Source of the DNA: Sipunculus nudus
Lineage: Eukaryota > Annelida > Sipuncula > Golfingiida > Sipunculidae
Direction of reading: 5' to 3'
NCBI GenBank assembly: GCA_026874595.1
Contig: CM049307.1
Coordinates: forward strand, 57,026,870 to 57,090,869
DNA length: 64,000 bases
In this document: piece after piece, positions 20,669 to 64,000 of the stretch
Layout of the letters: each line of letters opens with the position of its first letter
Position numbering within the stretch: position 1 is the stretch's first letter
Translations under genes and position numbers: made by a program
Notes under the pieces: generated by a model
The model's database searches: none
Seen by the model: only the letters and a program-made list of their open reading frames with translations
Told to the model about the DNA's origin: nothing

Positions 20669-20720
20669 AACGATTTTATTTCTCTTTCTTCAGGATAGAT
20701 GCGACCAAAGTATATATGTA

Positions 20721-35298: not shown

Positions 35299-35299
35299 A

Positions 35300-40663: not shown

Positions 40664-41484
40664 TATGTCTCCCCTGACTACAGGCCTCACATTCCCAAAT
40701 TTGAGGGGGGAAAACCCCTTCAAAAGTTTGGTGTTAACTTAAATTCTGGACTTCTAAAGATTTGACCTTGCATGATTATGATCAAGGTACCCAGGTTATG
40801 AACTGATCTGAGATTTTATTTGGCTGTATGAACTTGGAGAGCCAGGTGAAGGTCACCTGGTTTCGAGCTCCTCAAGGAAGTTGATTATAACAATCAGTGT
40901 TTCAAGTTTTAGGAAAAAATATGCGCTACTTCTAAAGCTATGAGATTCACAAATAATTCTATTTCGACCTATTTGACCTTGATGATGAAGGTCAAGGTCA
41001 CCATTTTTTCTACTTGTGTGAGATATTGGTGGAGACAATTCACAAGTTGAATTTCGTGAAAATATATCAAGTGATTCAAAAGTTATAGCGTTCAAAATTA
41101 ATTTCTATCCGGGCTGATTTGACCTTGAAGATACAGGTCAGGTCTCCAGTTTTCGAGCTCCTCAAAGAAGGTGATTAATGTATCAAACATAAATGTTTCA
41201 AATTTGAAGGAAAAATATGCGATACTATAAAAGTTATGGAATTCACCAAAAAATTATATTTTGACCTATTGGACCTTGATGATGAAGGTCAAGGTCACCG
41301 ATTTTCAAACTCCGACGAGATTTTGGTAGAAACAATTCATACTTAAAATTTCATGAAAAAAAAATGTTCACTTGTCCAAAAGTTATCGCGTTCACAAGAT
41401 ACGACACAAACGACGCCACCGACAGACGACAAACCAAAGTACACCCCCCCCCCCCCCTTCTCCCTTTGGAAGGGAGACATAATT
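40664..41484. mobile_element. TIR element with a 291-bp dimer
   Basis: The ends are TATGTCTCCC at about 40666 and GGGAGACATA at about 41474, an inverted repeat. Just inside the right end is a small hairpin with CTCCCTT/AAGGGAG arms, after a C run (about 41443-41457). The interior contains two related units whose shared start CGAGCTCCTCAA lies at 40864 and 41155, 291 bases apart. Each unit has a GACCTTGATGATGAAGGTCAAGG block. It is non-autonomous, and its family is not recognised. Confidence 0.5.
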
Positions 41485-42014
41485 ATCATAATATATATAG
41501 GGTGTTACAGCGGTGAAAGCACAAAGACGCCTAGTATCTTCAAACCCGGTTATAATGCACAAATTTTGCGGGAAATCGAAATTTATTATTGGTAAATATT
41601 TGTTGGCAAATTATTTTTTTCAAAGAAGTTTCTGACGTTTAAAAATCGGATAGTTTACAATTCCTTCCAAAATCGACATTAAACAATTCGTTCCACAGAC
41701 TGTTTTATCGCGGCGAAGAAGACCCTCAAATGACTCCTCACAGTTCTTTACATTGTACATTTCATACCTCACAGTTCTTTACATTGTACAAATGAATCAT
41801 GTTGGAACTACTAACCCTTGATCTCTGCATCTTCAGCGAGTAAGCTTCTGATTCATGTAATAGTATGTAGTAGTGTGTTAAACCGTAGCATGCAGACATA
41901 ATTGCCTAGCAGTAGAATATCAATTAACACTATAGTCAACAACATTCAGTTTCAGTAGATTCTGTACAATAAAAACACTTGCAAAATTATATGAGGTATT
42001 ATACTTGCAGTAGG
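41485..42014. other. Sequence downstream of the minus-strand gene
   Basis: AT-rich DNA after the stop codon of the gene read on the minus strand, so it would hold its 3' untranslated region. The 20-base CTCACAGTTCTTTACATTGT occurs twice (about 41740 and 41769), a small tandem duplication. No clear polyadenylation signal was singled out. Confidence 0.4.
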
Positions 42015-42723
42015 TCACTTTGTTTTCTTCGCCATTATTTGCTCCCGCCAATCTTGAAATGGGATCCGGTTGGGGTCATTTGGGCAGTACCAATTCCCAT
42101 ACAATTGAGAATGGCCAGTTGCTTTCGTACGGTCCTCGTTGCACTTCTTACATGTGTAGTGTAACTTGTATTTGATGTATCTTTTCTTTGGTGGCTCTCC
42201 TTTCTCCGCTCTCTCCAAATCTTCCCTTTCAGCTTTACGTTTGTACCACAAAGTGGACCTGCTCAGCGTCTCCTCTCTCTGGCTGTGACTCTCAGTGGAC
42301 ACTTCTGTGCCTCGAGTTGCCGCCAGTTTTGCAGCCGCAGCTGGACCATCATATATGGCAATGGACACTGGCGCACGATCTCCTGACTGCAGAACCAGCA
42401 TCCGAGATGGAAGAGGAGAATCTGAGGAGCTCTGGTTTGTACTCATTTGATGTGGAGGGGTACTTGTGGAAGTCGTTGCTCTGCTCCCTGCAACAGATGT
42501 TTGCCCTGAATAAATCAATCGCCGCCTTGCCTTCCCAAGTCTTGCTTCTCCTGCAGTGTTTTCTGGTTCCGTGAACTTCAAGAGATCATGCTGCTGTTCA
42601 TGAGGAACCGAAGGCAACACCTTTGCAGGTGGAGGCGAATTTCTGCTAATTCGGGTTGTATCTGGCAGATGTAAACCTTGTACCAGGAGTGCCGTTTCCT
42701 CTTTGCGCTACACGGTGTCATAC
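42015..42723 (-). CDS. Last exon: linker and C-terminal zinc-binding domain
   Basis: The acceptor TTTCGACAG precedes 42723, and the exon joins the previous block in phase to give ISTWYDTV, then an in-frame TAG (42708-42710), then RKEETALLVQGLHLPDTTR. A serine- and proline-rich linker of about 90 residues follows. The C-terminus contains LWYKRKAEREDLERAEKG and a zinc-binding pattern: C-x2-C in YTCKKC, then GHSQ and WYCPND, ending MAKKTK at a TGA (42015-42017). In the family this Cys/His domain is terminal. The stop could be CAG changed to TAG. About 200 residues after the stop remain open, so the loss is recent or the TAG is an error. Confidence 0.65.
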
Positions 42724-43083
42724 CTGTCGAAATTAATATATTACTAAATGTTAATACAGGTAAATGAAAGTAAATTATTATTGTTAATTTTATCTCAACG
42801 CTTTTTTTACTGGATTAAAGAAAATCTTGACAAGCCCCATGACTGAATTTATAACATATAAAGAAACATGCAAAACATAAATATAACCTGAAGATTATTT
42901 GCAAGAAAAAGTAATAATAAACTAATAATAAACTTTAATTCCCAATGACAAAAACCTTTCAGCATAGATAGAATTGATGTAACCTTAAAAGACGAAAAAA
43001 TAAAAGGATTCATTTGGTTATATATATATATATATATATAAGACGAAATATAAATAAATATATATATAAATAAGACGATATAT

Positions 43084-43130
<47 letters not shown>

Positions 43131-43140
43131 GAAAAAATAC

Positions 43141-43391
43141 CAGGTGCTGATCGTGCGTTGGTTAATATGTGGAAGAACCAGATTGGTTGCATCCATCAGG
43201 GCAGGGTTGCCGACCACCAGATTGCGGATCATCTGGTACCGCTCAAGCACTACACAATAACGGGGTTTATACCTCCCTCCACTCCTCCTCGGAGACCTGT
43301 AGGTGGAGCATAGCTGGCGGCACAATGCCTCCACAATCCTGTTGCAGGAAGGGTCAGCGGCAGGTGTTCCTGGGCCAAGTAATAATTTGAA
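43141..43391 (-). CDS. Exon: helical DNA-binding-like region
   Basis: The frame reads LLGPGTPAADPSCNRIVEALC, then RRSGGRYKPRYCVVLERYQ, MIRNLVVGNPALMDATNLVL and INQRTISTW, ending at a donor before GTATTTTTTC. The series of helices and the NQRTISTW segment resemble a helix-turn-helix end of the family. Two acceptors are possible (before 43391 or 43369), and neither joins the previous exon in phase. A TA microsatellite occupies the downstream intron (43020-43125). Confidence 0.6.
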
Positions 43392-43740
43392 CTACGGTAA
43401 CTAAATCACCAAAGAATTTGTGAATGCAACAGATAACACCTAGGTGAACCTTTAGAAAGGTGGCGAATCTTTTTATATTTTCTTGTTTTCATTTCAGTCT
43501 TTCCTGAAAATGTACCTTCACTGTGAATGCGATTGGAGAACTTTTTAAGAGATTATAAATAAATCAAATATGAATATATAATTAAAACTATATATTATCT
43601 AATGAATGTGACATATCTGGTTAAAGAGAATGTCAGATTGACAGTCCTTGGCGTAGGAGTTTGTACTTTATCATTTTTTAGGATTTATTATTAAAGGTAG
43701 AATGATGAACAAACGTTTTAGTTTTGTTTCACGATGTTAC

Positions 43741-43955
43741 CTTTGAGTAATCTCAATCCTGTGGGCTGTCTTATCTGGGATGCATCTGGATGTGTATGTT
43801 GTCGGCTTTTTGTCGTAGTCATGTAGACCCTCATACAGACTGATGATCTGTGACACCTGCTTACTTGAGAGTGCTATGCATTTCAAGTTTATCAGGTAAT
43901 CTGCCAGCTCAAGTACGCGATCCAATCCTGCAATACCTCGCGAGTCAATGGTCAC
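43741..43955 (-). CDS. Exon: conserved helical region
   Basis: The acceptor TTTTTTTGGCAG and donor GTAACATC bound an open stretch reading GIAGLDRVLELADYLINL, LSSKQVSQIISLYEGL, HDYDKKPTTYTSR and ITQR. The pattern VSQIISLYEGLHDYDKKP is the part I match best to the family. It starts in phase 0, which agrees with the previous exon once its frame change is discounted. Confidence 0.65.
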
Positions 43956-44064
43956 CTGCCAAAAAAAGGTTTTCATTCTTCCATACATGATATAAAATAT
44001 ATTAAAATACTTCTGCCCAATGCCTGTGTGTACGAAATCAAGCCAAGTGAATATTACAAAATAA

Positions 44065-46348
44065 CAAGTGACCCATGGGTCATGACGCTCAGCTGCCAAG
44101 CATGACCTGTGACATCATGGACTGAGATTCACAACTTCCAGTAAAATTTTGAAGCTATCAGGAACTATTCCAACAGCTTGCTTGAAACCTGTCAGTCTCA
44201 AGAGGAACACCACAAAGGGCAAATATAAGATCAAAATATATAGCAAAAATCAAGGAAATACATGCAAGAATTATTGAGAAACATGTGCTTCTGTATGAAT
44301 TTTTATTCAATACAAGCCAACTGTACTGCACTTTTATAAATGATAGTAATATTTATTCAGAAATATTTGACCCAATCCTTTACAAGATTACATAATGTAC
44401 ATCCAACTGCATTCACTTTAACTGTTCTTGAGATAATATGATCAAAAGGAATTAAAAGATGGTTGCCTGGTGGCCATATTGCACTTCTGACAAGTCTGAA
44501 ATCAGACAACAAACATTCTCTAAATCGGACCAAACATTAAAGAAAAATTACTGAAACTGCCCTGACGAAAGAATTTCTAAGGTGGCTAACTGGCAGACAT
44601 AATGGATTTCTGACAAGTATGACATTTGATATCCCACATTCTCCAATAAGAGACCAAACTTGGGGCAAATTATCCAGTAATAAATTGTAAAAAGTGTAAG
44701 TCCAATATTTTTATTATCACTCTGCTTTTCAATGGGGTCAGCAGGGTAGGTAAACTGCCAAACCTGAAAGAAAAGAAATGCAGAAAGCATGACTAACAGT
44801 CTTGAAACAAAACAAAAAGCCATCCTAAATCAAGGTACACATCCACATATTATGAGAACAAACACTTGCTTTTATATGTGGTGATATATATTAAAATATT
44901 CAGATATCTAGGAAACTAAGTTTATTGCTAGGATTCCATAAAATAAACTGCAAAATGTTCCCATCATCTTATAAATCAGTAGCTAATCCTTAATACTATA
45001 CTCTCATAGTCTTAATGCCTGGCTGAAGCATTCTGACAACAGTGTTTTTGTTATGAAGTAACGAGGTACTTATCACTGAGCCTTATCACTTAATAGGCTG
45101 ATACAAAAGGGAGTCATATGTCACCAGTGTCACTCACAATTACAGCCACACAGGGAGATGTACCAGCTGGAGTGGGATGGTTATATATACAAGAAAAATA
45201 GAGATGGTCTATAAAATAAGTAATTGTGAACATCCCTGACCTATGACCTTGGCCTTTTGCCCATATATCAACTGGATTCTTTCTAAATGATGGGTAACTA
45301 CTGACCACTTAAATCTGGTGTAATTACTTGGCAACCAATGGCTGAATAACTTTGACCTGCAACCTTTAACCTGCTGACCAGCTGACCCCAAAATCAATAA
45401 GTTATTTATTCAAGCAAAAAGACCCATAAATATGAAGTTTGAGTCAAACTGAGTGATGCATAGATGTGGCATATGTGAAAGACTGAAGTTTTGGGTTGAA
45501 CAGTTACACTTGAAATATGCTCACAAGCATTTAGAACAATTAAATATTGTGACCTTGACCTTTGACTTTTTGACCTCAACATCAATAGGCTTTTTCCCTT
45601 ATTGGTAGGTAAGCCATATATGACAGATGGAAGGTACAGATTGAAAAGTTTGCCTGAAAATGACTCCACGCAAGAAGTGGGTGCTGTGAACTTGACCTTT
45701 GACCTCAAAATCTACAGGTCTTTTCCCCTCTTGGCAGAGAAGCGATATCAGTGCTGGAAGGTTTGGAATATAAATTCTAGCTTGAAATGTGTCCACTACC
45801 TTTTCAAAGAAGTGGATCCTGTGACCCTGACCTTTGACCTTGTGACCTCAAAATCTATAGGATTCTTCTCCAACTTAGTAGGTGAGCTATATGTGAAAGA
45901 TCAAAGAATTGGGATGAAAGGGTTGGCTTAAAATGCATCCACAGGCTTTTCAAAGAGGAGGCTCCTGTGACCTTGACCTTTGACCTTTTGACCTAAAAAA
46001 ATTATGGTTCTTCCCCTGTTAGTAGGTGAGCTGTACGTGAAAGATGGAAGGTTTGGGATGAAAATTTTGTCTCAAAGAGTTATTTCTGGGGGGTGCAAAC
46101 ACACCCCATAACTTCGAGAATATAGGTCGCAGTGACCTAATTTCAGGTTTGCAAGGAGATCTTTTTATAACCTCTAAGACTGCATAGGGTTCATGGCCCT
46201 AGCCCCTACGGTTACGATTTGTGCCCTGCTAACGGAGGGACGGCCGGCCAGACGGCCGGCCGGACGGCCGGCCGGACGGACAGACGGAAGGACGCCGGAC
46301 AAAGACCCATCGCTATAGCCCAGCATGACTGAAAGTCAGCTGAGCTAA
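44065..46348 (-). mobile_element. Family II element, both ends
   Basis: Ends CAAGTGACCCATGGGTCATG with GCTCAGCTGCC and AGTCAGCTGAGCTAA. It belongs to the same young subfamily as 32871-35298 and 54454-56858, and most of its sequence is shared with both. A GGCCGGCCGGAC-type tract (about 46235-46275) is longer here. The AGGTCGCAGTGACCT module is near 46126. Confidence 0.75.
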
Positions 46349-47099
46349 TTATGCCAACAGCCTCGGGAGCATAGAGATGTGCACTGAATGACCTACAGTC
46401 ATCAAAGTGGACTGCTTGACAATGTAAGGGAATACAACAAGAGCCTCCAAAAAATATTCAATAACTAGCTTAATTTTGCAGCTTTTATTTTCAAATTTCA
46501 GATTTTTACAGATTAAATCCTTATGTATACATGCTGTGAAAATTAAATTCACAGTACTTACAGGAAAAAACGTGCCGTGGCCAAAGTTGGGCAAAATGTA
46601 AGGTACCAATTTTATATTTTAGCCAATATTTAAAAAAAATTAACAGATTTTATTATAATTTTCGGTATACAATTTTGATTAATTAAAGTTGTATTACTGG
46701 AAAAAAGTCCCTACTCTTAACACTTTTGGTCTTAAGTGACCAAATATCTTCCTGATTTTTTTACAAAGTCCATTATGTTTGGGCCCATAACTTTTTTTAA
46801 ATTATATAATACTGACTAAATATCTGGCATGTACATAGGAACTATATAGAGGAATATTTATGGTAAATATGAAGAAAACCAGATGAGTGGATTTGATATT
46901 AGGCAGTCCTGAAGTGTGAAAATAGATTTTTAATAAAAAATTGAGGTTTTTCCTTAATATCTTGAAGGAACGAAGTCCTATTGACCCAATTTTCGGCATG
47001 GTAGGAGATTTTGGGGACATCTAACTGTATGCCGAATTTCAGATTCGTAGGTCCAACGGTGTCGAAACGTGCCAGTCTTACGGACGGACATCCAGACGG

Positions 47100-47134
<35 letters not shown>

Positions 47135-47198
47135 GACGGACGACGGACAATGGACCACGACTATAGCTCAGATGACTTATAGTCAGCTGAGCTAAAAA
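46349..47198 (-). mobile_element. Family II partial copy
   Basis: From about 46381 this matches 22.89-23.62 kb (AAGTGGACTGCTT, AATGTAAGGGAATACAAC and onward) and ends in AGTCAGCTGAGCTAAAA. The GGAC-rich tract lies at about 47083-47145. The CTAG or CTTG end is absent, so only the 5' half remains. Confidence 0.6.
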
Positions 47199-47940
47199 AG
47201 CATAATTGGACCTAACACAGTGAAAATGACTGATTACCTTCCATGGCTGAACATCGTACACAGTCCATCATAAGAAACACAAAATTGAAAGACCGTCAAG
47301 AAACATGAATTTCAATTCATCAGCAACAAATGATATACGACGGGAGATTTTTTTAACTCACAATTGAAAGGAGAAAGAAAAGTCTTATATGAATACTACT
47401 TTTATGTTAGCCATTAACGCCATTGTTGAACACAGGTAAATGTTTACTGCACACAGAAATTTGCTCAAATTTTCTCAATAAAGAGAATGGATCTACTTCG
47501 ATGCAAGTCCCAATTAGACCTGATGATGACAAATCTCTAATGTTGTTTTATTATAGTTTACACAATAAAACAGTATGGTACAGTACAAATCAAGTCTGAA
47601 GTTATATGTAAACTAGGAAGCTGTACTACAGCAGCTCTGTAGTTAGCTTGAGAAAATAGATCAAATACTGAACCTTGAAGTTGAAGAAACAGTCACTGGA
47701 AAATGCGGAATGATTAAGCAGTTAGCATAAACTGAAATATTTGTTAAAAGTCAGCTTAACAAAAATAGGATATCGCCCAACATACAACTACAAGAGAAAT
47801 GATGGTCATTATTAACTAGACAAGGACAGTGACATGACATTAGTATATTTATTCATAAGGCCAAAAGAAAAGGTTCGGTTCTCTGGCACTGCCTGCATCA
47901 ATTTTAACCCCCCCCCCCCCCCCACATTAGAAATTGTAAT
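47199..47940. other. Intronic gap
   Basis: AT-rich sequence with a C run near 47908-47924 and no recognised element. I looked for an additional exon here and found none that fits. Confidence 0.5.
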
Positions 47941-48032
47941 TTGGAATTTAATTTCAAGAATAATACAATTTTTCATAAGATTTCCTATGTTATGTAGTGC
48001 TTGTACCTGTTTAGCAAAATAAATTCTATTAT
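47941..48032. repeat. Dispersed repeat, left part of interrupted copy
   Basis: Matches window positions about 47-107 and continues after the 6.3-kb element at 54365-54453. This is the target DNA of that insertion. A second insertion, the family II copy starting at 54454, interrupts the same repeat. Confidence 0.6.
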
Positions 48033-48164
48033 TGTATCCCCCGAAACAGAGTTTTGCGGATACTATATTTTCAGATGGACGCCCCGCCGCCGCCGCTGCG
48101 GTGTCTGGAGAACTCCTCCGTAACCGCTGGGCAGAATTTTACGAAACCCGGGATTTAGTGGGTG

Positions 48165-49356
48165 AGTTAAGTGCATAAAATAGGCTGTTGACTTCATTTC
48201 ATGATGCAAAGGTCCCCTTTGGCATAAAAGTACCTTAGGGTCATAGGATTAAATTTATCCAAAGACACAAGTTAGATCTCCCTTAGTATGTGAAATATAT
48301 GCAAATTATTCAAAATGGCCGCCGAAAATACTCCAAACCCCATATGCTTGCTGCTGTTACAGCTATAATGACAAATGTTGTGTCAAAATATACATTTTCT
48401 TGGTCAAGGAATCCAATGAAATAGGTTTCCAGATTGAGAAAACAATAGTTTTCTCCTTAACATGAAAATCTGGGGTAAAATGGGCACATTTCATAAAATA
48501 TCAATGATTTTCTTTCATCAGGGTAACCTGAGACACTTGAGACATCTATGTCCTTGGCATTTGGGAGGTATTAAACAGTTGTGAATAGACCACGAAGACG
48601 CGTCTAACTGAACACAATCCTCAGTCGACATACATAGAGCATGAAACCACAGGAAATTTAAAGCATTAACTAGAGAATTTCTGGTACGTGGCACTTACTT
48701 AATCTGAGTTTAGGCAGTACAGCAAGACCATGGTATTACAAGGACAGATATACAGTTTTTTTTCTTTTTTTTTTAGGAATCACCCAATGAAATACCCACA
48801 TTCTTGCTTTATCACCCGATCAAATACCCACACACGATGCTCTATTACTAGGAAATATACATAAGGCCTTGGTTGTGGTTTTTCCGCATGTACTGTTATT
48901 TCATTTGTATACATTATCTGGGTAATACGGCATAAAATGACCTTTCTCGAAAGTACAGCCTGCATGAGATATATATAAAACCAGAGTACCAGTACACACA
49001 GGAATGGGTAGACATTCCTGTAGGAGAACACAATAAAGTTGCCAATTGTGGTTCCTTCCCAGAATCTAAAATTTTGATTCGACAGAATATATTGCTTGAA
49101 ATACATCTTATCTATCTCATGATCTATCTCATGATGGCCAACCCATAATAGTAAATGATCAATGCTGAAAACTAAAAAGCCATCAGTTCTTGACATTCTT
49201 GGTGTTTATGCTTCGCCAATTAGTTTAGGGTTTTATAGTGAAATATCCTAAAAACTTTGTTCACATTTCTATTTTTACAAGTAATGTTAGGGAACTGAAG
49301 GAATTAGATGTCTTATATTTTAGTTGTGGGTGAAATGATTGTTGAAGTAATGGTGG
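48165..49356 (-). repeat. Left arm of 1.2-kb inverted repeat
   Basis: It matches 51820-52997 in inverse orientation with scattered differences. It contains a minus-strand frame of 138 residues (48780-49196) with TQIMYTNEITVHAEKPQPR and HRVWVFDRVIKQECGYFIG. No known domain is recognised. The spacer between the arms is about 2.5 kb. Confidence 0.85.
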
Positions 49357-51819
49357 CAGTGCTGATTGTTCAGGATGTGATGCAGGTTATATCAATGAAT
49401 CCAGTATTGTTCACAAAAACTGCAATAATGCCACCGATCATCAGCATGTTAATGATGCAATAATAAACTTGCAACCGAAGTATAAGCACAGCAAGAAGGC
49501 GAGATGCCAAGTCCGCCTAACAGGCTTTACCTCTCACTTCCGTGCTATATAACCTTTTACACTAGTCATAACAGAAAAACAGAAAGTGTTGAATGTAATG
49601 TCTAAATGTAATTCAATAAAGTTTAGAATTTGATAAATTGTAACTTTATCACTTTACATGGACCCAGAGAAACTACTGACCTGGAAAGGGTCACTGTCAT
49701 CTAATCTCATAGCTTTCCCGGGAGTGGAAACTGGGTATAGCCAGCACAGAGATCAAAGTCTATTACCACTCGACTCCTATGTTCCATGTTCTCAGTGATT
49801 AGCTCTTTATTTAAACATTGCGTCCAAAGACATTTCTTTCCTTTGCCTAAAATCAGCTTTAATCTTTGGGCAAAAGGATCTCACATGTACTCCCTGAGGA
49901 TCCAGTCACCTCTTGGTCCACATATGTTCCTGGTGTCCAATGTCCATGGGGAAGTAAATAATTTTCTTCTCAGTAAGACCCAGATTGAAGTGGAATAGAA
50001 AATTGGTAGTGTCCTTTGTCATATAAAGAGATTAAGACACTAATTTACTTACATCATGCAATGAAAATACATCTTAAACCTTGAAATGCACAAGTCACGG
50101 TAATGCATAAGTGAGAATAATATGTCATTTAACCTTAACAATACCCCGAACAGACCTAGGAAATTAAGTTATCAGTACCTGGGAGTATACAAGTGTCAGG
50201 GCTTACACCAAGAAAATAACCCTTTTAGATCCATCAGTGGAAAACAATTTTTTTAGGGTTGTAAAGCTGACCATTTGTCAATGATTCTCCAAAGTTAGGT
50301 AATCTCTGATGAACTAATTTAGCAAATCCCATTCAGTCATGTCGCACCAGCAGCTTTATGTTACTATGTATAACCCTTTCAGGCATGGGCCACGTTGATA
50401 AACAGCAGCAGCGCCCGTCATGTTACTTGTCTCTGACCTCTTCAGCAAATTCTCTCACATTTCCAATCAAACAAATAATCTGGTTTTTTTTTCAGAAAAA
50501 ACTAATTCTTGCTCATAATAATTTAATAAAATGTGTATGTTATACTTTTACAGTTGGTCACAACTAACCTGAAAAGGGGGCTCAAACTGCTTTGACGTCA
50601 GCAAGACACGCCACAAATGTCACTTAAAATTCGAAGGGCCTATAACATAAACAGTACTGGACATTTTATTTAACCTATAAGCAAGATATAGGTTTTCTTT
50701 AATTTATGCTGTGGTACCACCATGTGATAATTCCTATGCACACAATTCATTAGTTTTAATTGAAGTGCAATGCTCCTACGTTTTTCAGGGTCACCTGCCG
50801 ATATTCTGCAGATGAATTTGGCAAGTAGGGCCTACCAGGTCACATTTGGGTTTTTAGGGAGATTTCTAAGATTGTAATACATGTTGTGCTTACTCGTTAG
50901 AATTTCAACGGATATCAGACGGCTATTAAGTTCATTATAAATATTAATAAACACCAAAGTCCAGGAATCACTCCAATCTAAAAGATAGATGTTTGAGGAT
51001 TTGGCTTCAGAAGTATACACACATTCTCAAATGCAGTTTGACTAGATCTGTAAACAAGCAATGTTTGGCCAAGTTTATCAATTTGTGACTGTCCTGTGAC
51101 AACTCTGATAGTATAGTACTGACTTTCTGGGCATAAGGAACTTTGACTAATGTGATTCGTGCAATGGACTTCACTATCCAGAATGCTAGATTCTGGGAAA
51201 TAGGTGCTTCCATTTTTATCAAATGCACATCTTAAATAGATTATGTGATGATTATATCGCACAAGACCTAAAAGTTGTACATTGAAGCTCAAGCAGACGA
51301 TAATCTTTTGTTGGCAATAAAGAAATTCTCATGTCCACTTTGTACAGCTGCCAATACCTCTGTGTACTCCGTCTGTGACAGAGTGAAACATATGTAAGCC
51401 GTGCAAAACGTATGGTTTAAGGGGTATTAAAGAGATATTGTATTCCAGAACATGGCAGTAAATTTGAAAACTTACGGAAGCAAGACTATGGACGTGTGTT
51501 CTTACGTTCAATTAAATTATATCTGATCATAAGCATAATTATAGATTATTCGAATAGCATGCAGCTTAATTATTTCTCCACGTAATACAAATATGTTTAT
51601 CACTTTGTTGTGGTTTTATGCTCTGTATGCAGTGAATCGCACACATCGGGTACATATACACTGGTATTAAATGCTCCCCTGTCTATATAAGGATAATAAA
51701 CAAGAACTTATAAAGGAATATAATACAAAACCAATCAAAGATATTAAAAGTTTTCATGATGATACTAAAATTTATTGAAATTTGCATACTTTCCCCATAA
51801 TTTCAAGGTAGGATGAATA
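49357..51819. other. Spacer between inverted arms
   Basis: AT-rich DNA without a recognised gene. Frames of 60-104 residues are scattered on both strands. No repeat was identified. Confidence 0.5.
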
Positions 51820-52997
51820 CTTTTACTTCATTACTTCAACAATCATTTCATCCACAATAAAATGTAACACATCTAATTCCTTCAGTTACCTGACGTTACT
51901 TGTAAAAATAGAAATACGAACACAACTTTCAGGATACGCGTATTTCCCTATAAAACCCAATATCTAACTGGAGAAGCATAAAAACCAAGAGTGTCCATGA
52001 CTGATGGCTTTTGTGCTTTTGGTATTGATCAACTATTAAGGGTTGACCATCATGAGATAGATAATATGTGTCTCAAACAAAATATTCTGTTGAATCAAAA
52101 TGTTAGATACTGGGAAGAAACTACAGTTGGCAACATTATTGAATTTTGTTACAGGAATGTCTTCCCATTCCTGTGTGTACTGGTACTCCTCTTTTGCCAA
52201 GTAAATCCCATGCATGTTGTGTGGTCCAGAAGGGTCAGTTTATGCCGCATTACCCAGATATTGTATACAAATGAAATAACAGTACATGCGGAAAAACCAC
52301 AACCAAGGCCTTATGTATATTTCCTAGAGCATCGTGTGTGGGTATTTGATCGGGTGATAGAGCAAGAATGTGGGTATTTCATTGGGTGATTCTTAAAAAA
52401 AGGACTGTAAATCTGTCCTTGTAATACCATGGTCTTGCTGTACTGCCTAAACCCAGATTAAGTAAGTGCCACGTACCAGTAATTCTCTAGTTAATGCTTT
52501 AAATTTCCTGTGGTTTCATGCTCTATGTATGTCGACTGAGGATTGTGTTCAGTTAGACGCGTCTTCATGGTCTATTCACAACTGTTTAATACCTCCCAAA
52601 TGCCAAGGACATAGATGTCTCAAGTGTCTCAGGTTACCCTGATGGAAGAAAATCATTGATTTTTTATTAAATGTGCCCATTTTACCCCAGATTTTCATGT
52701 TAAGGAGAAAACTATTGTTTTCTCAATCTGGAAACCTATTTCATTGGATTCCTTGACCAAGAAAATGTATATTTTGACACAACATTTGTTATTATAGCTG
52801 TAACAGCAGCAAGCATATGGGGTTTGGAGTATTTTCGGCGGCCATTTTGAATAATTTGCATATATTTCACATACTAAGGGAGATCTAACTTGTGTCTTTG
52901 GATAAATTTATTCCTATGACCCTAAGGTACTTTTATGCCAAAGGGGACCTTAGCATCATGAAATGAAGTCAAAAGTCACTTAACCCACCTACTAATT
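51820..52997 (+). repeat. Right arm of 1.2-kb inverted repeat
   Basis: It contains a plus-strand frame of 132 residues (51991-52389) homologous to the left-arm frame. The two frames differ by three indels of 12, 6 and 3 bases, all multiples of three, and end at the same position. This suggests past coding constraint, but the arms may simply be too similar to judge. Confidence 0.85.
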
Positions 52998-53089
52998 ATG
53001 TTCGGGTCATATGTAAACTGCTGCGCCCCGATTTCGTTTTGACCTCTGACCTTTCCTCTGCGCTCTGCGTCCATTTGTGCGTCTGTTAA

Positions 53090-54245
53090 CATAAACCCAC
53101 ATATCTCGGGAACCGTTTGACCGATCAGGCTAAAAATTTTACACAAATGTAGCCCTTGGATAGATTTATAACATACACTAAAAATGGTGGCGCCACCTGC
53201 AACCATTTTTGAACTGTGTCCATCTGTTCATCTGCCTTGGGATAAAATCAGTCATATCTCTGCATTGGTTGTACTTATTCACCTGAAATTCGGCATGCGT
53301 ATACATCCTGGATAGCTATTTCGATTTTGTGACAGGTGGCGCCACTTACATTCATGTTTACGCTGCAGACATCCAAGCTCATATCTTGGGAACCGTTAGA
53401 CCGGTCAGGCTAAAAATTTTATACAAATGTAGCCCTTGGATAGCTTTATAAAATACACTATAAATGGTGGCGCCACCTGCAACCACTTATGCATAGCGTC
53501 CGTCTGTTTGTCTGCCGTGGGATAAAATCACTTATATCTCGGCAGTGGTTTGACATATCCACCTAAAATTTTGCAGGTTTATACATCCTAGATAGCTCTC
53601 TTGATTTTATGACAGGTGGCGCCACCTATATTCACGTTTATGCTGCAGACATCCTAGCTCATATCTTGGGAATCGTTTGACGGATTGGGCCAAAATTTTG
53701 CATGTGTATAGATCTCACATAGCTCTCTATCATATGCAAAACTGGTGGTGCCTCTTGCAACCATTTTTGCACCAAGTCCATCTGTTTGTCTGCCTTGGGA
53801 TAAAATAACTCATATGTCTGTAGTGGTTTGACATAACTACCTAAAATCTTGCAGGTTTATACATTCTGAACAGCTTTCTGGATTTTATGATGGGTGGCGC
53901 CACCTACATTCTAGTTTACGCTGCAGACATCCAAGCTCATATCTCCGGAACTGTATGACCAATTAGGCCAAAATTTTGCATGTGCATAGATATCACATAG
54001 CTCTTTATCATGCACAAAACTGGAGGGGCCACCTGCAACCATTTTTTCACAGCTTCTGTCTGTTTGTCTGCCGTGGGCTAAAATTACTCATATCTCTGTA
54101 GTAGTTTGACTTATCTGCCTAAAGATTTTGCATGTTTATACATCTTGGATTGCTTTCTCGATTTTTTCTGGCAGGTGACAGCTTTCTGCATTTGTGGTAG
54201 ATGGCGCAACCTACATATACATTTTGGCTGCAGACATCCATGCTA
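53090..54245 (+). repeat. Tandem block of four ~280-bp units
   Basis: The phrase CATATCT(C/T)GGGAACCGTT or close variants starts units at about 53099, 53381, 53660 and 53938, steps of 282, 279 and 278. Each unit contains one or two GGTGGCGCC-type palindromes and CTGCAGACATCC. The units diverge progressively. They lie directly inside the hairpin end of the 6.3-kb element. Confidence 0.85.
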
Positions 54246-54453
54246 AGTTGCAACACACCTTACTCTATTTTCCCTTGCCACTCAATCCATGCCTCACTTC
54301 ACCCGTTCCACTCTGATTTTTGCGGATACACGTAGTCGCTTGTCGACTACCCGTATTCTAGTAATATCGTGCTTTTCCCTGATCATACAACATCTTTATC
54401 AAAACATACAAATACGGGTTAAAAAATTGCCTACCAGCACTGATTTCTGAAAA

Positions 54454-56858
54454 CAAGTGACCCATGGGTCATGACGCTCAGCTGCCAAGCATGACCTGTG
54501 ACATCATGGACTGAGATTCACAACTTCCAGTCAAATTTTGAAGAACCAATTTGCCAATTTGTTGAAAATTTTCTATGACAACAGAAATATATATCACCTA
54601 TGTCTTGTTAAAACACAGTGAATTGATGGTCTGAGGAAAATGCATGATTGTTAAGCTATCAGGAACTATTCCAAAGGAACACCACAAAGGGAGAATATAA
54701 GATCAAAATATATAGCAAAAATCAAGGAAATACATGCAAGAATTATTGAGAAACAGGTGCTTCTGTATGAATTTTTATTCAATACAAGCCAACTGTACTG
54801 CACTTTTATAAATGATGGTAATATTTATTCAGAAATATTTGACCCAATCCTTTACAAGATTACATAAATATACATCCAACTGCATTCACTTTAACTGTTC
54901 TTGAGATAATATGATCAAAAGGAATTAAAAGATGGTTGCCTGGTGGCCATATTGGACTTCTGACAAGTCTGAAATCAGACAACAAACATTCTCTAAATCG
55001 GACCAAACATTAAAGAAAAATTACTGAAACTGCACTGAAGAAAGAATTTCTAAGGTGGCTAACTGGCAGACATTATGGATTTCTGACAAGTATGACATTT
55101 GATATCCCACATTCTCCAATAAGAGACCAAACTTGGGCAAATTATCCAGTGATGAATGCCCAAAATAATTCAAAAGGCATGTCCAGGCCCTCATATCAGA
55201 TTTATAGATATGCAATTGTAAAAAGTGTAAGTCCAATATTTTTTATTATCACTCTGCTTTTCAATGAGGTCAGCAGGGTAGGTAAACTGCCAAACCTGAA
55301 AGAAAAGAAATGCAGAAAGCATGACTAAGAGTCTTGAAATAAAACAAAAAGCCATCCTAAATCAAGGTACACATCCACATATTATGAGAAGAAACACTTG
55401 CTTTTATATGTGGTGATATATATTAAAATATTCAGATATCTAGGAAACTAAGTTTATTGCTAGGATTCCATAAAATAAACTGCAAAATGTTCCCATCATC
55501 TTATAAATCAGTAGCTAAACCTTAATACTATACTCTCATAGTCTTAATGCCTGGCTGATGCATTCTGACAACAGTGTTTTTGTTATGAAGTAACGAGGTA
55601 CTTATCACTGAGCCTTATCACTTAATAGGCTGATACAAAAGGGAGTCATATGTCACCAGTGTCACTCACAATTACAGCCACACAGGAAGATGTACCAGCT
55701 GGAGTGGGATGGTTATATATACAAGAAAAATAGAGATGGTCTATAAAATAAGTAATTGTGAACATCCCTGACCTATGACCTTGGCCTTTTGCCCATATAT
55801 CAACTGGATTCTTTCTAAATGATGGGTAACTACTAACCACTTAAATCTGGTGTAATTTCTTGGCAACCAATGGGTGAATAACTTTGACCTGCAACCTTTA
55901 ACCTGCTGACCAGCTGACCCCAAAATCAATCAGTTATTTATTCAAGCAAAAAGACACATAAATATGAAGTTTGAGTCAAACTTAGTAATGCATGGATGTG
56001 GCATATGTGAAAGACTGAAGGTTTGGGTTGAACAGTTACACTTGAAATATGCTCACAAGCATTTAGAACAATTAAATATTGTGACCTTGACCTTTGACTT
56101 TTTGACCTCAACATTAATAGGCTTCTTCCCTTATTGGTAGGTAAGCCATATATGACAGATAGAAGGTATAGATTGAAAAGTTTGCCTGAAAATGACTCCA
56201 CGCAAGAAGTGAGTGCTGTGAACTTGACCTTTGACCTCAAAATCAACAGGTCTTTTCCCCTGTTGGCAGAGAAGCGATATCAGTGCTGGTAGGTTTGGAA
56301 TGAAAAGTCTAGCTTGAAATGTGTCCACAACCTTTTCAAAGAAGTGGATCCTGTGACCCTGACCTTTGACCTTGTGACCTCAAAATCTATAGGATTCTTC
56401 TCCAACATAGTAGGTTGGCTATATGTGAAAAAATCAAAGAATTGGGATGAAAGGGTTGGCTTAAAATGCATCCACAGGCTTTTCAAAGAAGAGGCTCCTG
56501 TGACCTTGACCTTTGACCTTTTGACCTAAAAAAAATTATGGTTCTTCCCCTGTTGGTAGGTGAGCTGTATGTGAAAGATGGAAGGTTTGGGATGAAAATT
56601 TTGTCTCCAAGAGTTATTTCGGGGGGTGCAAACACACCCCATAACTTCGAGAATATAGGTCGCAGTGATCTAATTTCAGGTTTGCAAGGAGATCTTTTTA
56701 TAACCTCTAAGACTGCATAGGGTTCATGGCCCTAGCCCCTACGGTTACGATTTGTGCTCTGCTAACGGACGGACGGCCGGCCGGACGGACAGACGGAAGG
56801 ACGACGGACAAAGACCCATCGCTATAGCCCAGCATGACTGAAAGTCAGCTGAGCTAAA
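54454..56858 (-). mobile_element. Family II element, both ends
   Basis: Ends CAAGTGACCCATGGGTCATG with GCTCAGCTGCC and AGTCAGCTGAGCTAAAA. Nearly the same sequence as 44065-46348, and it includes a section at 54540-54700 that is lacking there. It interrupts the dispersed repeat after TGATTTCTGAAAA. Confidence 0.75.
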
Positions 56859-56949
56859 AATTGGGATGACTGTGTAATCATATCATAATAATATTTTTAA
56901 TTTCAAGTAAAGGTGCTTGATAAGGAATGAAATTGAAACACAACAATAA

Positions 56950-58704
56950 CTAGACATTTCTTGCCACCGCAGGTGCCAGAGTATCCCCAGACATAGTCAA
57001 ACCAACCGACTGAAACACTCACATACGAACACTCCAATCACTGAATAAGACATATGTTAACTAAACAAGTCAATATATTAAACTAGACATTTCTTGGCAG
57101 AGTATCCCCAGAGTATCCCCAGACATAGTACACCCCCCCCCCCCTTTAAGAATAGGCCCCCATTTTTAGCAGCATATACTGACACTTGGCAAACAATTAT
57201 TGTTTCTTCCATCTATCAATCCACAATCTTTTTGAAGATGTTGGTCCTGTGACCTTGACCTTTTGGCACATCACAAGGCTATCCAAGATCTTCTGTCGCC
57301 TTGGTTTTGGGACCAATCCATGCAAACGATCTTGAGATATTTAAAAGTGTGTGTAATTTTCAGCAGAAATGGACCTATTCAAGGTCAAGGTCACTCTCTT
57401 AGCAAAGGTCATGACCCCATTATAAATAGGCTTCGTCCTCTTACCTATATCTATACATGTAAAGTTTGATAAAGATCCGAGAAATTTTTTGAGTTATCTT
57501 GCTCACAAGATTTTTCTGTGGCGGGACCGTCATGAAACCATAGTATCCCGTGCATCCAAAATCTTTTTAAAGATGTGTCCTGTGACCTTGACCTTTGACC
57601 TCATGACCCCAAAATCAATTCGGGTCTTGCTTTTCCAATGGGTCATATACAAGTCAAGTTTGAAATCCATGCATCAATAAAAGCAGTAATTATCATCCAG
57701 AAACTAATTTTTAGACAGATGGCTCCTGTGACCTTCACCTCTGACCTTGTGACCCCAAAATTGATAGGGTTCTTCCACTCTTGGCAGGTGAACTATATGT
57801 GCCAGATGATAGATCTGAGATAAATTGTTTGGCTAAAAATGCATCCACAATCTTTTTAAAGATGTGTCCTGTGACCTTGACCTTTGACCTCATGACCCCA
57901 AAATCAACTTGAGTCTTGTTTTTTTCAATGGGACATATATAAGTCAAGTTTGAAATCAATAAATCAATAAAAGCGAGAATTATCATCCAGAAACTAATTA
58001 TTTGACAGGTAGCTCCTGTGGCCTTGACCTTTCACCTCATGACCCTAGAACCTATAGGGTTCTTACTTTAGTGGTGGGCCATACATAAGTCACGTTTGAA
58101 ATCCATATGGCTATCAACACTGGAGATATCATAAGAGGTGTGTGATTTTCACCAAATATGGACACATTAAAGGTCAAGGCCACATTATGGTAAAGGTCAT
58201 GACCCAAATGTAAATAGACCTCATCCCATAACCCATCTCTCTACATGTGCATAATATGAAAGAAATCTAATCAAACGTTTTTAACTTATAATGCTTACAG
58301 TACTGTCAAGTGGCATTTATAGGGGTATTAAAAGGCGTAAAAACAAGAAAAGGATAATAGGTGGCGCCACCAGTTTCCAGTATATCACAAGGCCATCCAA
58401 GATCTTCGGTCACCTTGATTTTTGGACCAGTCCATGCAAGCTTACTTGAGATATTTAAGAATTTGTGTTATTTTCAGCAAAAATGGACCTATTCAAGGTT
58501 AAGTTCACTCTCCTATCATAGGTCATGACCCCATTTTAAATAGGCTTCGTCCCCTTACCTATATCTATACAAATGTAAAGTTTGAAAAAGATCAGTGAAA
58601 TATTTTTTGAGTGATCCCGCTCACAAGGTTTTTCTGCGGCGGCGGCGGCAGCGGCGCGGGACCGTCGTGAAACCATAGTATCCCGACTTTGTCTGGGGAT
58701 ACAA
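56950..58704 (-). mobile_element. Family I element with two successive 3' ends
   Basis: On the minus strand the element runs from GGGGATAC (about 58703) through array units to a first CTAG at 57083-57086. There the hairpin is deleted and GAGTATCCCC is duplicated. It continues through the 85-bp flank shared with 26435-26519 to a second terminus at 56950-56997, where the hairpin and CTAG are present. This fits read-through of a damaged terminator, or a nested junction. The GGTGGCGCCACC palindrome lies near 58361. Confidence 0.6.
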
Positions 58705-58955
58705 TAAAAGCACGAACTATCATGCAGAAACTAATTTTTGGACAGATGGCTCCTGTGACCTTCACCTTTGACCTTGTGACCTCAAAGTTGATAGGGGTCT
58801 TCCTCTATTGGCAGATGAACTATATGTGCAAGATGAAAGGTCTGAGATGAAATGTTTGGCTGAAAATGCATCCATATCTTTTTAAAGATGTGTCCGGTGA
58901 CCTTGACCGTTGACCTCGTGACCCCAAAATCAATTCGGGTCTTGCTTTTCCAATG
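58705..58955. repeat. Array units next to an exon
   Basis: One and a half array units follow the GGGGATAC end, with the same junction as at 27706. They stop within the phrase CTTTTCCAATG at 58955, about 9 bases from the splice donor of the exon at 58966-59187. Confidence 0.7.
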
Positions 58956-58965
58956 AAACTTAAAC

Positions 58966-59187
58966 TTCAGCCGTTGCCTCAGACTCTGATGGCTGCTGGT
59001 CACCTGTCACATCTTAGCTGGGTCCCTCGACTGGTACCAACTGAGAACATGATGTTTCAGGCCCATGTGGACTACTTGATGATAAAACAAAGTCCCTCCG
59101 TAGCATTTCCTCAAAAAGCTGTCACACTGACATCCTGCATGCTGGGCACAGTATGGTCAACCACTTCATCGTCGTCTGCTTCAGCAT
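58966..59187 (-). CDS. Exon: acidic and serine-rich linker
   Basis: The acceptor TTTTTATAG is followed in phase by DAEADDDEVVDHTVPSMQ and DVSVTA. An A5 run (59113-59117, plus strand) shifts the frame. In the alternative frame it reads FEEMLRRDFVLSSSSPHGP and LVPVEGPS, a TAA (59014-59016), then DVTGDQQPSESEATAE. Removing one base would make the exon end in phase 0 at a GTTTAAG donor, which agrees with the next exon. The two lesions indicate decay or sequence errors. Confidence 0.5.
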
Positions 59188-59650
59188 CTATAAAAATGTG
59201 AAAATTGTAATAAAAACTGTCAGCACATGAAGTTCTGACAAATAATTTCTAATGTATTATTATCATTTTATTTGAGGTTACATTTTAATGATAAATAGTT
59301 GCATATTATAACAGTAATAACATAGTAACACCCAACGCCTGAAGCTGACTAGTTTATTCAATCTATTTTCCCCAATATCTTATTACTGTATATGTATAAA
59401 TTTTTAATACTAGGTTAATTCGAGGATTTGGAAAAAATGAAAAAAATGACACATTTTCTAGAATGGTATTTTTGAAATAAAAAATAACAGCATTGAATTC
59501 ATGAATACGTTCCATTGTATTTAAGTAAGGTTATGTGGTAACTGTGGAAAGTTAGAGATAACACGGTTCTGAGAAGCCATATCTTTGAATAATTTAGTAG
59601 TAAACACTATACACAAGGAAAAGCTTTAATCAAATTTAAGTGTAGTTAAC

Positions 59651-59776
59651 CTGATGTCTCCTCTGTGTCATCCTCATCTCCGTCGTCCTCCTCGATCATG
59701 TCCTTTGCCTGCTCAGTCAGCAGAGTAAGATCAAACTCAGACTGCGGCAATAGGTACTCCACCCCGATCCTCTCTC
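59651..59776 (-). CDS. Exon: conserved GVEYL segment and acidic tail
   Basis: The acceptor CTTGTTTTAG and donor GTTAACTAC bound 126 bases. Joined in phase to the previous exon, the product reads PPGKYTGERIGVEYLLPQ, then EQAKDMIEEDDGDEDDTEE. The GKYTGE-GVEYL link is the family's typical transition from the core to the linker. Fully open. Confidence 0.7.
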
Positions 59777-60059
59777 CTAAAACAAGAATAGAAATGATTC
59801 ACCATATATATGGAATAAGCATTGATTAGTTTAAATATGACACTTCGTGTTTTAAAATTAACTCAAAACATCATATCATGGCTTATCATTTGTCTTGAAC
59901 ATTTCTATAATTTTCAGGAAGCTTAAAATGCTGAATGTATAAATTGCTTTATGGATGAATGAACTATGGTTAAACGAACTTATTTCCCAAATTAACAATT
60001 AAGATGTCTAGTTTTAAGTTCTTGTTTAATGTCTTTCATTCTAATAGACAAATAAATAC

Positions 60060-60271
60060 CTGTGTATTTTCCTGGAGGCCGGTACTCCTTGAACTGTTCT
60101 GTATTCAAGACAGACTTGCTGAGTTCATTCACTCTGTTCTTTAGTCTGGTGTCATAGCAACGAACGGTTGAGGGTGGGCTGGCTAGAGCTTGTGTGGCCC
60201 GACTTGAATTCCACCGAGCCAGACCTTCCAGGAGATACACTTGAAAATTCAGGGCGCTGGCACTATAGTGC
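60060..60271 (-). CDS. Exon: core region, ARWN motif
   Basis: The exon reads HYSASALNFQVYLLEGLARW, NSSRATQALASPPST, CYDTRLKNRVNELSKSVL and FKEYRPPGKYT, and ends at a GTATTTATTT donor. ASA-NFQ-YLLEGLARWN is characteristic of the family. Its start is one base out of phase with the previous exon. It is otherwise open and joins the next exon correctly. Confidence 0.7.
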
Positions 60272-60573
60272 CTGGGATACAATTTTATTTTCATTCAACA
60301 GGCAAGAAATGAAAGGTACAAGTTACCAAGAAAAACTCGGTGATTATGTTAAGATTTAAGACATTCTGGATATCTTAGTTGGTTATTTATATATATGAAA
60401 TGTATGTAGCTAATAGTCATGTGATCGAGGAAGTACACAAATTAAAACTAAGCCGAAATTGTAGTAAAAAAGGGAGTGCCGATTCATGGTGGTTGACCTT
60501 TACTGATGTTCCGGTAATTAGTGCAGACTGCATTCACCTTATCACTATTTTTAAAACAAACCATTAATTTTAC

Positions 60574-61372
60574 CTGGGATGAACCGGTTAAGGTGTAGAT
60601 GGAATGACCTTAGTGACGCGGTTCCCATTGCGCACCTGTAGACATTCAGTTCCACCCCGCCTTTGTGCAATGTTCCGACCCTGGTGTACAGCTGTACCCC
60701 TTGTGGGTCCTGGATGCATTCGATATGTTTCTTCTGGGTTTCCCAAATCTTCACCATCCGGTCTTTGTCAAACAATGGTACCCCAAGAGAATCTGTGGCG
60801 TTAGCCATACTTCTCAAGAGTTGCTCAATTAAGAAAGTTGTCCGTGACATACCTCTTGTCTCTCGTCGGCAGTGCCTCGCCAACTCGTCACGGCTGATTG
60901 ATCTGTCAACAAGTTTGTCCGTGACATGCTTTGGATTAATTCCCCGAGTTAGCAGCTCTGATGCCTTGGCTTGACGGAGAATGTGAAGGTCACCCTCATC
61001 CCACTTGGAGATGCATGAAGACAGGCGTGACATGAATGTTCCATACAGTGGATGGGCGTCAGTTGTACAACCAACACTGAACCTCCGGATGAAGTGCCAG
61101 ATGTCTAAGCGCACCTTGACCTTCCATGGAGTGAATAGCTGGCTCATGAGTGGCTTACCCTCCGAGGTACAGCAGTCCCTGTCCACATATATAAAGCAGG
61201 GTGGTTCTTCCCCTGCATTCTTGTAACGCCGGACAATTCCCTGGGCCATGGGTCGGAGGCCAAGGCCCTCAAAGGTGGTAAGGACCGACATCAGAATCTC
61301 GCCACGTTCATTTCCAACATTTGTGGTCCAGGCAGCAGTTCTAGCAACCTTGTCTGCAATCTTTTTGGTAAT
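60574..61372 (-). CDS. Exon: transposase-like core, VDRDCC motif
   Basis: This is the longest exon (799 bases), with acceptor TTTCTCCGGCAG and donor GTAAAATT. It is fully open in one frame for 266 codons. Motifs in order: AAWTTNVGNERGEILMSVLT, FIYVDRDCC, VRLDIWHFIRRFSVG, HPLYGTFMSRLSSCISKWDEG, HIECIQDPQGVQLYTRVGT, LRSFHLHLNRFIPG. The spaced acidic residues in VDRDCC, RLDIWHF and HIECIQD suggest an RNase H-like transposase core, but this is inference. The upstream exon with the start codon is outside the window, beyond the family I element at 61587. Confidence 0.75.
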
Positions 61373-61586
61373 CTGCCGGAGAAATAGATAAATCCTTTAA
61401 TCATTTCGAAAGGATTATTTTAAACAAACTTTAAGTGTATGAATACTGACGAAAGGCCGGTCTGACCACTGACCACTATTTAATCCCGTTAAAAATGTTA
61501 TGTTTTAAATTATAATGGCATATTTTAAGTTTCCGTGCGTTTATTTAAATATTGAATAACATAATTTAATATTATCATTATATAAA
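61373..61586 (-). other. Start of intron beyond the core exon
   Basis: AT-rich intronic DNA before the family I element. No further exon was found in it. Confidence 0.5.
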
Positions 61587-64000
61587 CTAGACATTTCTTG
61601 GCACCGCAGGTGCCGGAGTATCCCCAGACATAGTAGGCCCCCCTCCTACAAGAACAGACCCCCATTTTTAGCAGCATATACTGACACTTGGCATATTTAT
61701 TGTTTATTCCATCTAACGATTCCACAATCTTGTTGAAGATGTTGGTCCTGTGACCTTGATCTTTTAAAAGATGTGTCCTGTGACCTTGACCTTTGATCTC
61801 ATAACCCCAAAATCAATTTGGGTCTTGCTTTTCCAATGGGACATATGCAAGTCAAGTTTGAAATCTATACATCAATAAAGCAGGAATTATCATCCAGAAA
61901 CTTATTTTTGGACAGATGGCTCCTGTGACCTTCACCTTTGACCTTGTGACCTCAAAATTGATAGTGTTCTTCCTCTCTTGGCAGGAGAACTATATGTGCA
62001 AGATGAAAGATATGAGATGAAATGTTTGGCTGAAAATGCATCCACATCTTTTTAAAGATGTGTCCTGTGACCTTGACCTTTGACCTCATGACCCCAAAAT
62101 CAATTTTGGTCTTACTTTTCCAATGGGACATATACAAGTCAAGTTTGAAATCCATACATCAATAAAAGCAGGAATTATCATCCAGAAACTAATTTTTGGA
62201 CATATGGCTCCTGTGACCTTCATCTTTGACCTTGTGACCTCAAAAGTGATAGGGGTCTTCCACTCTTGGCAGGTGAACTATATGTGCAAGAGGAAATATC
62301 TGAGATGAATTTTTTGGCTGAAAATGCATCCACAATCTTTTTAAAGAGGTTTCCTGTGACCTTGACCTTTGACCTCATGACCCCAAAATCAATTTGGGTC
62401 TTGCTTTTCTAATGGGTCAATAACAAAGCCAAGTTTGAAATCCATACATCAGTAAAAGATGGAATTAAAATCCAGAAACTAATTTTTGGACAGATGGCTC
62501 CTGTGACCTTCACCTTTGACCTTGTGACCTCAAAACTGATAGGGTTCTTCCTCTCTTGGCAGGTGAACTATATGTGCAAGATGAAAGACCTGAGATGAAA
62601 TGTTTGGCTGAAAATGCATCCACATCTTTTTAAAGATGTGACCTTGACCTTTGACCTCATGACCCCAAAATCAATTTGGGTCTTGCTTTTCTAATGGGTC
62701 AATAACAAAGCCAAGTTTGAAATCCATACATCAGTAAAAGATGGAATTAAAATCCAGAAACTAATTTTTGGACAGATGGCTCCTGTGACCTTCACCTTTG
62801 ACCTTGTGACCTCAAAACTGATAGGGTTCTTCCTCTCTTGGCAGGTGAACTATATGTGCAAGATGAAAGACCTGAGATGAAATGTTTGGCTGAAAATGCA
62901 TCCACATCTTTTTAAAGATGTGACCTTGACCTTTGACCTCATGACCCCAAAATCAATTTGGGTCTTGCTTTTCAAATGGGACATATATAAGTCAAGTTTG
63001 AAATCCATACATCAATAAAAGCAGGAATTATCATCCAGAAACTAATTTTTGGACATATGGCTCCTGTGACCTTCACCTTTGACCTTGTGACCTCAAAATT
63101 GATAGGGGTCTTCCACTCTTGGCAGGTGAACTATATGTGCAAGATGAAAGATCTGAGATGAATTGTTTGGCTGAAAATGCATCCACAATCTTTTTATAGA
63201 GGTTTCCTGTGACCTTGACCTTTGACCTTATGACCCCAAATTCAATTCCGGTCTTGCTTTTCCAATGGGTCAAATACAAGTCAAGTTTGAAATCCAAACA
63301 TCAATAAAAGAAGGAATTATCATCCAGAAACTAATTTTTGGACAGATGGCTCCTGTGACCTTCACCTTTGACCTTGTGACTTCAAAATTGATAGGGTTCT
63401 TCCTCTCTTGGCAGGTGAACTAAATGTGCAAGATGAAAGATCTGAGATGAAATGTTTGGCTGAAAATGCATCCACATCTTTTTAAAGATGTGACCTTGAC
63501 CTTTGACCTCATGACCCCAAAATCAATTTGGGTCTTGCTTTTCCAATGGGACATATATAAGTCAAGTTTGAAATCCATACATCAATAAAAGCAGGAATTA
63601 TCATCCAGAAACTAATTTTTGGACATATGGCTCCTGTGACCTTCACCTTTGACCTTGTGACCTCAAAATTGATAGGGGTCTTCCACTCTTGGCAGGTGAA
63701 CTATATGTGCAAGATGAAAGATCTGAGATGAATTGTTTGGCTGAAAATGCATCCACAATCTTTTTATAGAGGTTTCCTGTGACCTTGACCTTTGACCTCA
63801 TGACCCCAAAATCAATTTGGGTCTTGCTTTTCCAATGGGACATATATAAGTCAAGTTTGAAATCCATACATCAATAAAAGCAGGAATTATCATCCAGAAA
63901 CTAATTTTTGGACAGATAGCTCCTGTGGCCTTGACCTTTGACCTTGTGACCCCAAAATTTATATGGATCATCCATTATTGGCAAGTGAGCTATATATTCA
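61587..64000 (-). mobile_element. Family I element, runs off the window
   Basis: CTAG at 61587-61590, then hairpin arms TGGCACC and GGTGCC around GCA, then GTATCCCCAGACATAG and a short C run, the same order as at 26520. Alternating array units of about 140 bp, paired into dimers of about 282-288 bp, fill the rest. Long segments near 62384-62665 and 62666-62947 are nearly identical. A block near 62984 recurs at 63554, 570 bases away, so recent multi-unit duplication has occurred. The 5' end is outside the window. It sits in an intron of the minus-strand gene. Confidence 0.65.

Follow-up and report, generated by a model that had tools for sequence, protein, structure and literature searches.

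Coding blocks on the minus strand

The window analysed here is a stretch of 64,000 nt from the Sipunculus nudus genome (1.43 Gb; C2:57026870-57090869), and coordinates given without a contig name are positions within it. Between positions 61372 and 42015, it carries on the minus strand seven coding blocks of a split, transposase-like gene, with GT-AG borders at all six junctions. The blocks recur in the same order and with the same borders in two paralogs on contigs C9 and C11, the third block being truncated, and thus partial, in C11. They are listed here as exons E1 to E7.

60574..61372, minus strand: exon E1, 266 codons, DNA identity to the C9 copy 93.7%
60060..60271, minus strand: exon E2, contains ALNFQVYLLEGLARWN, frame shifted at its start
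59651..59776, minus strand: exon E3, contains GVEYLLPQSEFD, acidic tail
58966..59187, minus strand: exon E4, acidic linker, carries a frameshift and a TAA
43741..43955, minus strand: exon E5, contains SLYEGLHDYDKKP, 39 bp shorter than its C9 counterpart
43141..43338, minus strand: exon E6, contains NQRTISTW
42015..42723, minus strand: exon E7, interrupted by a TAG close to its start; the CCHC finger (Cx2Cx9Hx8C) at its C-terminal end is followed by 22 residues

A preliminary description of this DNA had proposed a split gene of seven minus-strand blocks with GT-AG borders, and the analysis confirmed both the junctions and the coding nature of the blocks. The stop-free run that holds the first block spans 281 codons, longer than any run in 100 simulated windows, where the maximum was 236. 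The G+C content was 0.46-0.54 in the exons and 0.20-0.33 in the introns where measured (only 107 bp in the case of intron 4). Nonsynonymous divergence (dN) between the window and C9 copies was 0.054 and synonymous divergence (dS) was 0.145 over 705 codons of E1, E2, E5, E6, and E7, and by this codon comparison (dN/dS 0.37) the ancestors of the window copy were under protein constraint. Taken alone, the junction 58966/43955 is weak, with a donor at the 19th percentile among all 3727 GTs; both of its borders are kept in C9 and C11.

The blocks had also been read in order as one protein, and this did not hold for the window copy: their plain join contains internal stops, the first of them soon after the E1-E2 junction. 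Compared with C9 and C11, a 2-bp difference at the start of E2 shifts the window frame, E4 is interrupted where it is open in both paralogs, and the TAG at the start of E7 replaces a Gln. The supposed VNGE-type start proved to be the motif TNVGNERGE, which belongs to an internal exon; the exons for the N terminus are located past position 64000. The exon of this copy that encodes the domain DUF6729 was found at C2:57094125-57094859, 3.3 kb past the window end, and contains a TGA that aligns with a Cys at position 352 of the predicted C9 protein. Codon 255 of E1 encodes Arg in the window and Glu in four paralogs; in C9 numbering, the Arg stands at position 755, the probable catalytic Glu described below. 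With two frameshifts and two stops inside the window, a third stop outside it, and Arg at the probable catalytic Glu, the window copy is, as judged from its sequence, dead.

We considered whether the gene could still be working, with the breaks being either assembly errors or skipped through other splice sites. Some alternative joins are in frame (e.g., donor 59132 for E4), and one break adjoins a run of T. The alternative joins were dropped because the paralogs C9 and C11 keep the original borders, and the changes from Gln to TAG and from Glu to Arg are not products of single-base insertion or deletion errors. A working gene is accordingly regarded as very improbable.

Paralogous copies and the predicted protein

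A search with a 1001-bp query (E1, intron 1, and part of E2) detected the window copy and at least four further copies in the genome that were 87-91% identical, four of them located on C9, on C11, and as a tandem pair on C8. DNA identity to the seven blocks was 85-96% in C9 and C11, while E4 and E5 were not found in the C8 pair. The C9 and C11 copies were 98.1-98.7% identical to each other over ~10 kb, with a lower value of 94.9% in the 5' 1.9 kb; both end abruptly, with unlike flanks, on two contigs. A candidate terminal duplication reads CCCGGC at both ends of the C9 element, which is 12.26 kb long, and CACGGC and CCCGGC at the ends of the C11 element, which has its own breaks in E1 and in the DUF6729 exon. 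A once-mobile gene with acquired introns had been suggested earlier. Because the paralogs share their intron borders, and because introns are usual in transposase genes of the Dada superfamily, occurring in all families except the Perkinsus ones according to the published account (PMC3706591), the introns are, on this comparison, ancestral rather than acquired.

For the C9 copy, 10 exons were predicted; their phases are consistent, and the reading frame of 1341 aa is free of internal stops. The first three exons were picked by eye, and an additional small exon is possible. In Pfam, the protein matched the full DUF6729 profile (PF20499) with E=4e-74; the match covers residues 231-475 and lies immediately ahead of the first catalytic Asp. 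The DUF6729 lead of the preliminary description was therefore right for the C9 relative, and for the window copy through its exon outside, while no DUF6729 match was present inside the window. Likewise, the Pfam search it had recommended gave no match for the blocks alone, whether as five window open reading frames or joined into 826 aa (E up to 10), and was informative with the 1341-aa protein. With E values up to 10 allowed, neither the 826-aa nor the 1341-aa protein matched any Pfam transposase model, and DUF6729 was the only match of the latter.

The transposase-like core that had been noticed in the blocks was borne out. E1 carries a putative second catalytic Asp in YVDRDCC (codon 64) and a DxxH motif, DIWH (codon 90); in C9, the first two putative catalytic Asp are D496 and D564, with an interval of 68, followed by DIWH at 590 and E755, with an interval of 191 between the second Asp and the Glu. 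At residue 755 (SLESFH), Glu is present in all 11 rows of DUF6729 loci with coverage there (these include the query's own locus and two rows that overlap each other), whereas residue 741 is Glu in only 2 of 12 rows and was dropped as a candidate; on this conservation, residue 755 is probably the catalytic Glu. Four cysteines ahead of the first Asp (C300, C303, C349, and C352) are arranged as Cx2C-x45-Cx2C, and the C-terminal finger is Cx2Cx9Hx8C, followed by 22 residues.

Searches in other collections were negative. No match was found for E1 or E7 in PHROGs and NCBIfam, for E1 in phages and plasmids, or for a relative of E1 or E7 in viral contigs. Nine pattern matches in GTDB genomes included no relative of E1, and the sole PDB match of E1 was one chain at E 0.88, which is chance level. 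A match of E5 in viral contig L001 (41%, 38 residues), where neighbouring frames look bacteriophage-like, was dismissed as chance.

Likeness to Dada and RNA-gene targets

The blocks very probably come from a decayed DNA transposon consistent with the Dada superfamily, of whose ten predicted exons they make up seven. Likeness to Dada was judged from published residue positions and spacings, not from a sequence alignment. As published, the transposase of Dada-U6_DR has 1402 aa encoded by 11 exons, the residues D567, D635, and E811, a DxxH motif, an N-terminal CCCC finger, and a C-terminal finger formed by C1359, C1362, H1372, and C1381 (PMC3706591). The C9 protein resembles it as a large multi-exon transposase (1341 aa, 10 predicted exons) in which the interval between the first two Asp is also 68 and DxxH follows. 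The CCHC finger Cx2Cx9Hx8C has identical spacing in Dada-U6_DR and in the window and C9 copies, with 21-22 residues after it (PMC3706591). This finger pattern was matched once in the window, whereas 150 simulations gave a mean of 0.03 matches. As in Dada, no long terminal inverted repeat was found in C9; target duplications in Dada are 6-7 bp, and the candidate duplication of C9 is 6 bp (PMC3706591). The C/DxxH signature is common to Dada, hAT, Kolobok, MuDR, and P (PMC3706591, PMC8869645); the absence of Pfam transposase matches noted above sets both proteins apart from hAT, Kolobok, MuDR, and P.

The usual target of Dada is a multicopy small RNA gene, and 18 of the 36 families in Table 1 of the published account are without a target in their name (PMC3706591). 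The S. nudus genome gave 39 matches to the DUF6729 profile, several being parts of a single copy; 14 control genomes of unstated kind gave no match. In the best match, on C15 (L022), the core is 57% identical to C9 and the interval between the first two Asp is also 68. A U6 3' fragment starting GCGCAAGG lies on the 5' side of this copy, 7.4 kb from its DUF6729 exon. The fragment starts at GCGCAA, which is the published Dada-U6 site and duplication; in the zebrafish element, the gene is encoded opposite to U6 (PMC3706591). The association is one of proximity, over 7.4 kb. About 1 kb beyond the fragment, a second U6 gene (L052 6999-7120, C15) fits the model only to position 66; it was dropped as proof of a second insertion, since decay would look alike.

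Just upstream of the window's copy, a tandem array in L020 (C2:57100000-57109999) contains seven transfer RNA (tRNA)-Met genes and one tRNA-Trp gene. The homology of the window copy starts 157 bp from the end of this array, and those 157 bp are another repeat, so the junction of the copy with the array is lost. As tRNA-Met is among the genes targeted by Dada-tR or Dada-tN (PMC8869645), the array is suggestive of a Dada-type target, and no more. A DUF6729 fragment of ~0.7 kb (L031 1109-1790, C13) lies in a spacer of a tRNA-Arg(ACG) array, and the tRNA that follows it, the third of the array, has an altered 5' end; with a mere fragment in the spacer and an altered tRNA, this locus was dropped as a clean insertion. 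ARAGORN, run on 23 of the 30 fetched DUF6729 loci, found tRNA genes nowhere except at the C13 locus, and Rfam detected no genes at the C6 stretch or among those C8 loci that were scanned. The C6 loci L032-L036, five matches to DUF6729 with equal scores, form two sets with a spacing of 13.1-13.2 kb inside each set; these are apparently tandemly amplified copies.

Several observations weigh against assignment to Dada. The interval between the second Asp and the Glu is 176 in Dada-U6_DR and 191 in C9 (177 if the poorly conserved Glu is used), and the N-terminal cysteines are spaced Cx4C-x34-Cx2C in the former and Cx2C-x45-Cx2C in the latter (PMC3706591). Rfam searches of the C9 and C11 neighbourhoods found no tRNA, small nuclear RNA, or ribosomal RNA at gathering or permissive scores, the permissive search giving just weak microRNA-type matches far below the cut-off. 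The 8 kb at the opposite side of the C15 copy (L053) yielded no U6 5' part, and the subterminal repeats described for Dada-U6 were not found. The window copy lacks both of its ends: neither the first ~810 bp of the C9 element nor its final ~730 bp was found there. An AlphaFold model of E1 alone had a predicted local distance difference test score of 33.7 and was not used. In addition, the 12.26-kb C9 element is longer than the published Dada elements (4.7-11.0 kb; PMC3706591).

The differing Glu interval and cysteine spacing, the lack of a recognised RNA-gene target at C9 and C11, and a likeness based on published spacings rather than alignment would all suit a transposon of a separate superfamily, distinct from Dada but having DUF6729 and the DxxH core in common with it. 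The Asp interval of 68 and the CCHC spacing are exactly those of Dada, however, and the relative with a 57% identical core has, close by, a U6 fragment with its break at the Dada-U6 site (PMC3706591), so that we consider a separate superfamily unlikely. A domesticated transposase, as the preliminary description had proposed, would be a Dada-derived host gene comparable to dDada of carps, with introns kept and catalysis lost. Arg at the probable catalytic Glu agrees with this idea, as does the dN/dS of 0.37 against C9, although that value is an average that includes the time before the breaks. The frame is nevertheless broken by two frameshifts and two stops in the window and one more stop upstream, and near-identical sister copies are present at different places; domestication is thus highly unlikely. 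The domesticated Dada-U6 element dDada would share its superfamily with the window copy and also has an altered catalytic residue, but it is found at conserved loci and is transcribed, whereas the window copy is broken (PMC8869645).

For a decayed Dada-type transposon, we infer the following course. The transcript of an open copy would be spliced and give a transposase of ~1340 residues, with an N-terminal DUF6729 domain containing the paired cysteines, an Asp-Asp-Glu (DDE) core with DxxH, and a C-terminal CCHC finger. This enzyme would excise the element, join it elsewhere, and leave a short target duplication. Later repeats lengthened the window copy from ~12 kb to >30 kb, the 15-kb intron included.

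The Pfam entry for DUF6729 (PF20499) describes only a domain of unknown function. Its position directly before the first catalytic Asp, together with the U6-associated relative, suggests that DUF6729 is a zinc-binding portion of the transposase in a family known for target choice. The link between DUF6729 and Dada is apparently new; it was not found in a literature search, outside of which were subscription papers, preprints, and Repbase notes. Also apparently new are the near-identical C9 and C11 copies, with definable ends and located outside any recognised small RNA gene. A tentative extension, which we find plausible without favouring it, is that the lineage is a Dada branch that left the small-RNA-gene lifestyle, with a GC-rich candidate duplication, and that DUF6729 marks Dada transposases and genes derived from them. 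If so, the lineage would lend itself naturally to comparisons of how target choice is set by the DUF6729 and CCHC domains. Gene models containing DUF6729 should be examined as potential transposons before being labelled host genes.

Repeats within and around the window copy

Piecewise homology to the 12.26-kb C9 element extends from window position 41483 to coordinate 72039, beyond the window. In addition to the exons, the window copy includes the following parts.

43956..58965, minus strand: intron 4, 15,010 bp, of which 10,989 bp (73%) match elsewhere in the window
61373..64000, minus strand: partial intron preceding E1 (C9 length 346 bp), with a ~289-bp tandem repeat at 61759-63995, to the window edge
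41483..42014, minus strand: 3' part of the element, with patchy C9 homology, the final matched piece being 74% identical over 160 bp

The 15-kb intron filled with elements was correctly recognised in the preliminary description. With the same borders, intron 4 is 342 bp in C9, 341 bp in C11, and 15,010 bp in the window. The 3' border of E4 coincides with the edge of repeat sequence, which reaches 58964, and the identical border is present in C9 and C11. Nested repeats can therefore make a 340-bp transposon intron resemble the 15-kb intron of a host gene.

Inside intron 4, inverted arms at 48185-49352 and 51829-52975 (~1.17 kb, 89.6% identical) resemble an element with long inverted ends, and a tandem array at 53100-54165 has a 278-bp unit in 3.8 copies. 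The array upstream of E1 at 61759-63995 has a 289-bp unit in 7.8 copies. A 2.4-kb repeat is present in three copies (32868-35303, 44146-46348, and 54451-56864) that are ~90-96% identical, and a related piece is found next to the tRNA array, where the window's transposon copy has its 5' edge. A long interspersed nuclear element (LINE)-like retrotransposon at 30715-36162 on the plus strand showed RVT_1 (PF00078) matches in two neighbouring frames, and its coding region is broken near 32.9 kb by the copy of the 2.4-kb repeat at 32868-35303. A further tandem array at 20720-21919 consists of 16 copies of a 75-bp unit with 97% matches and contains an open frame of 268 codons.

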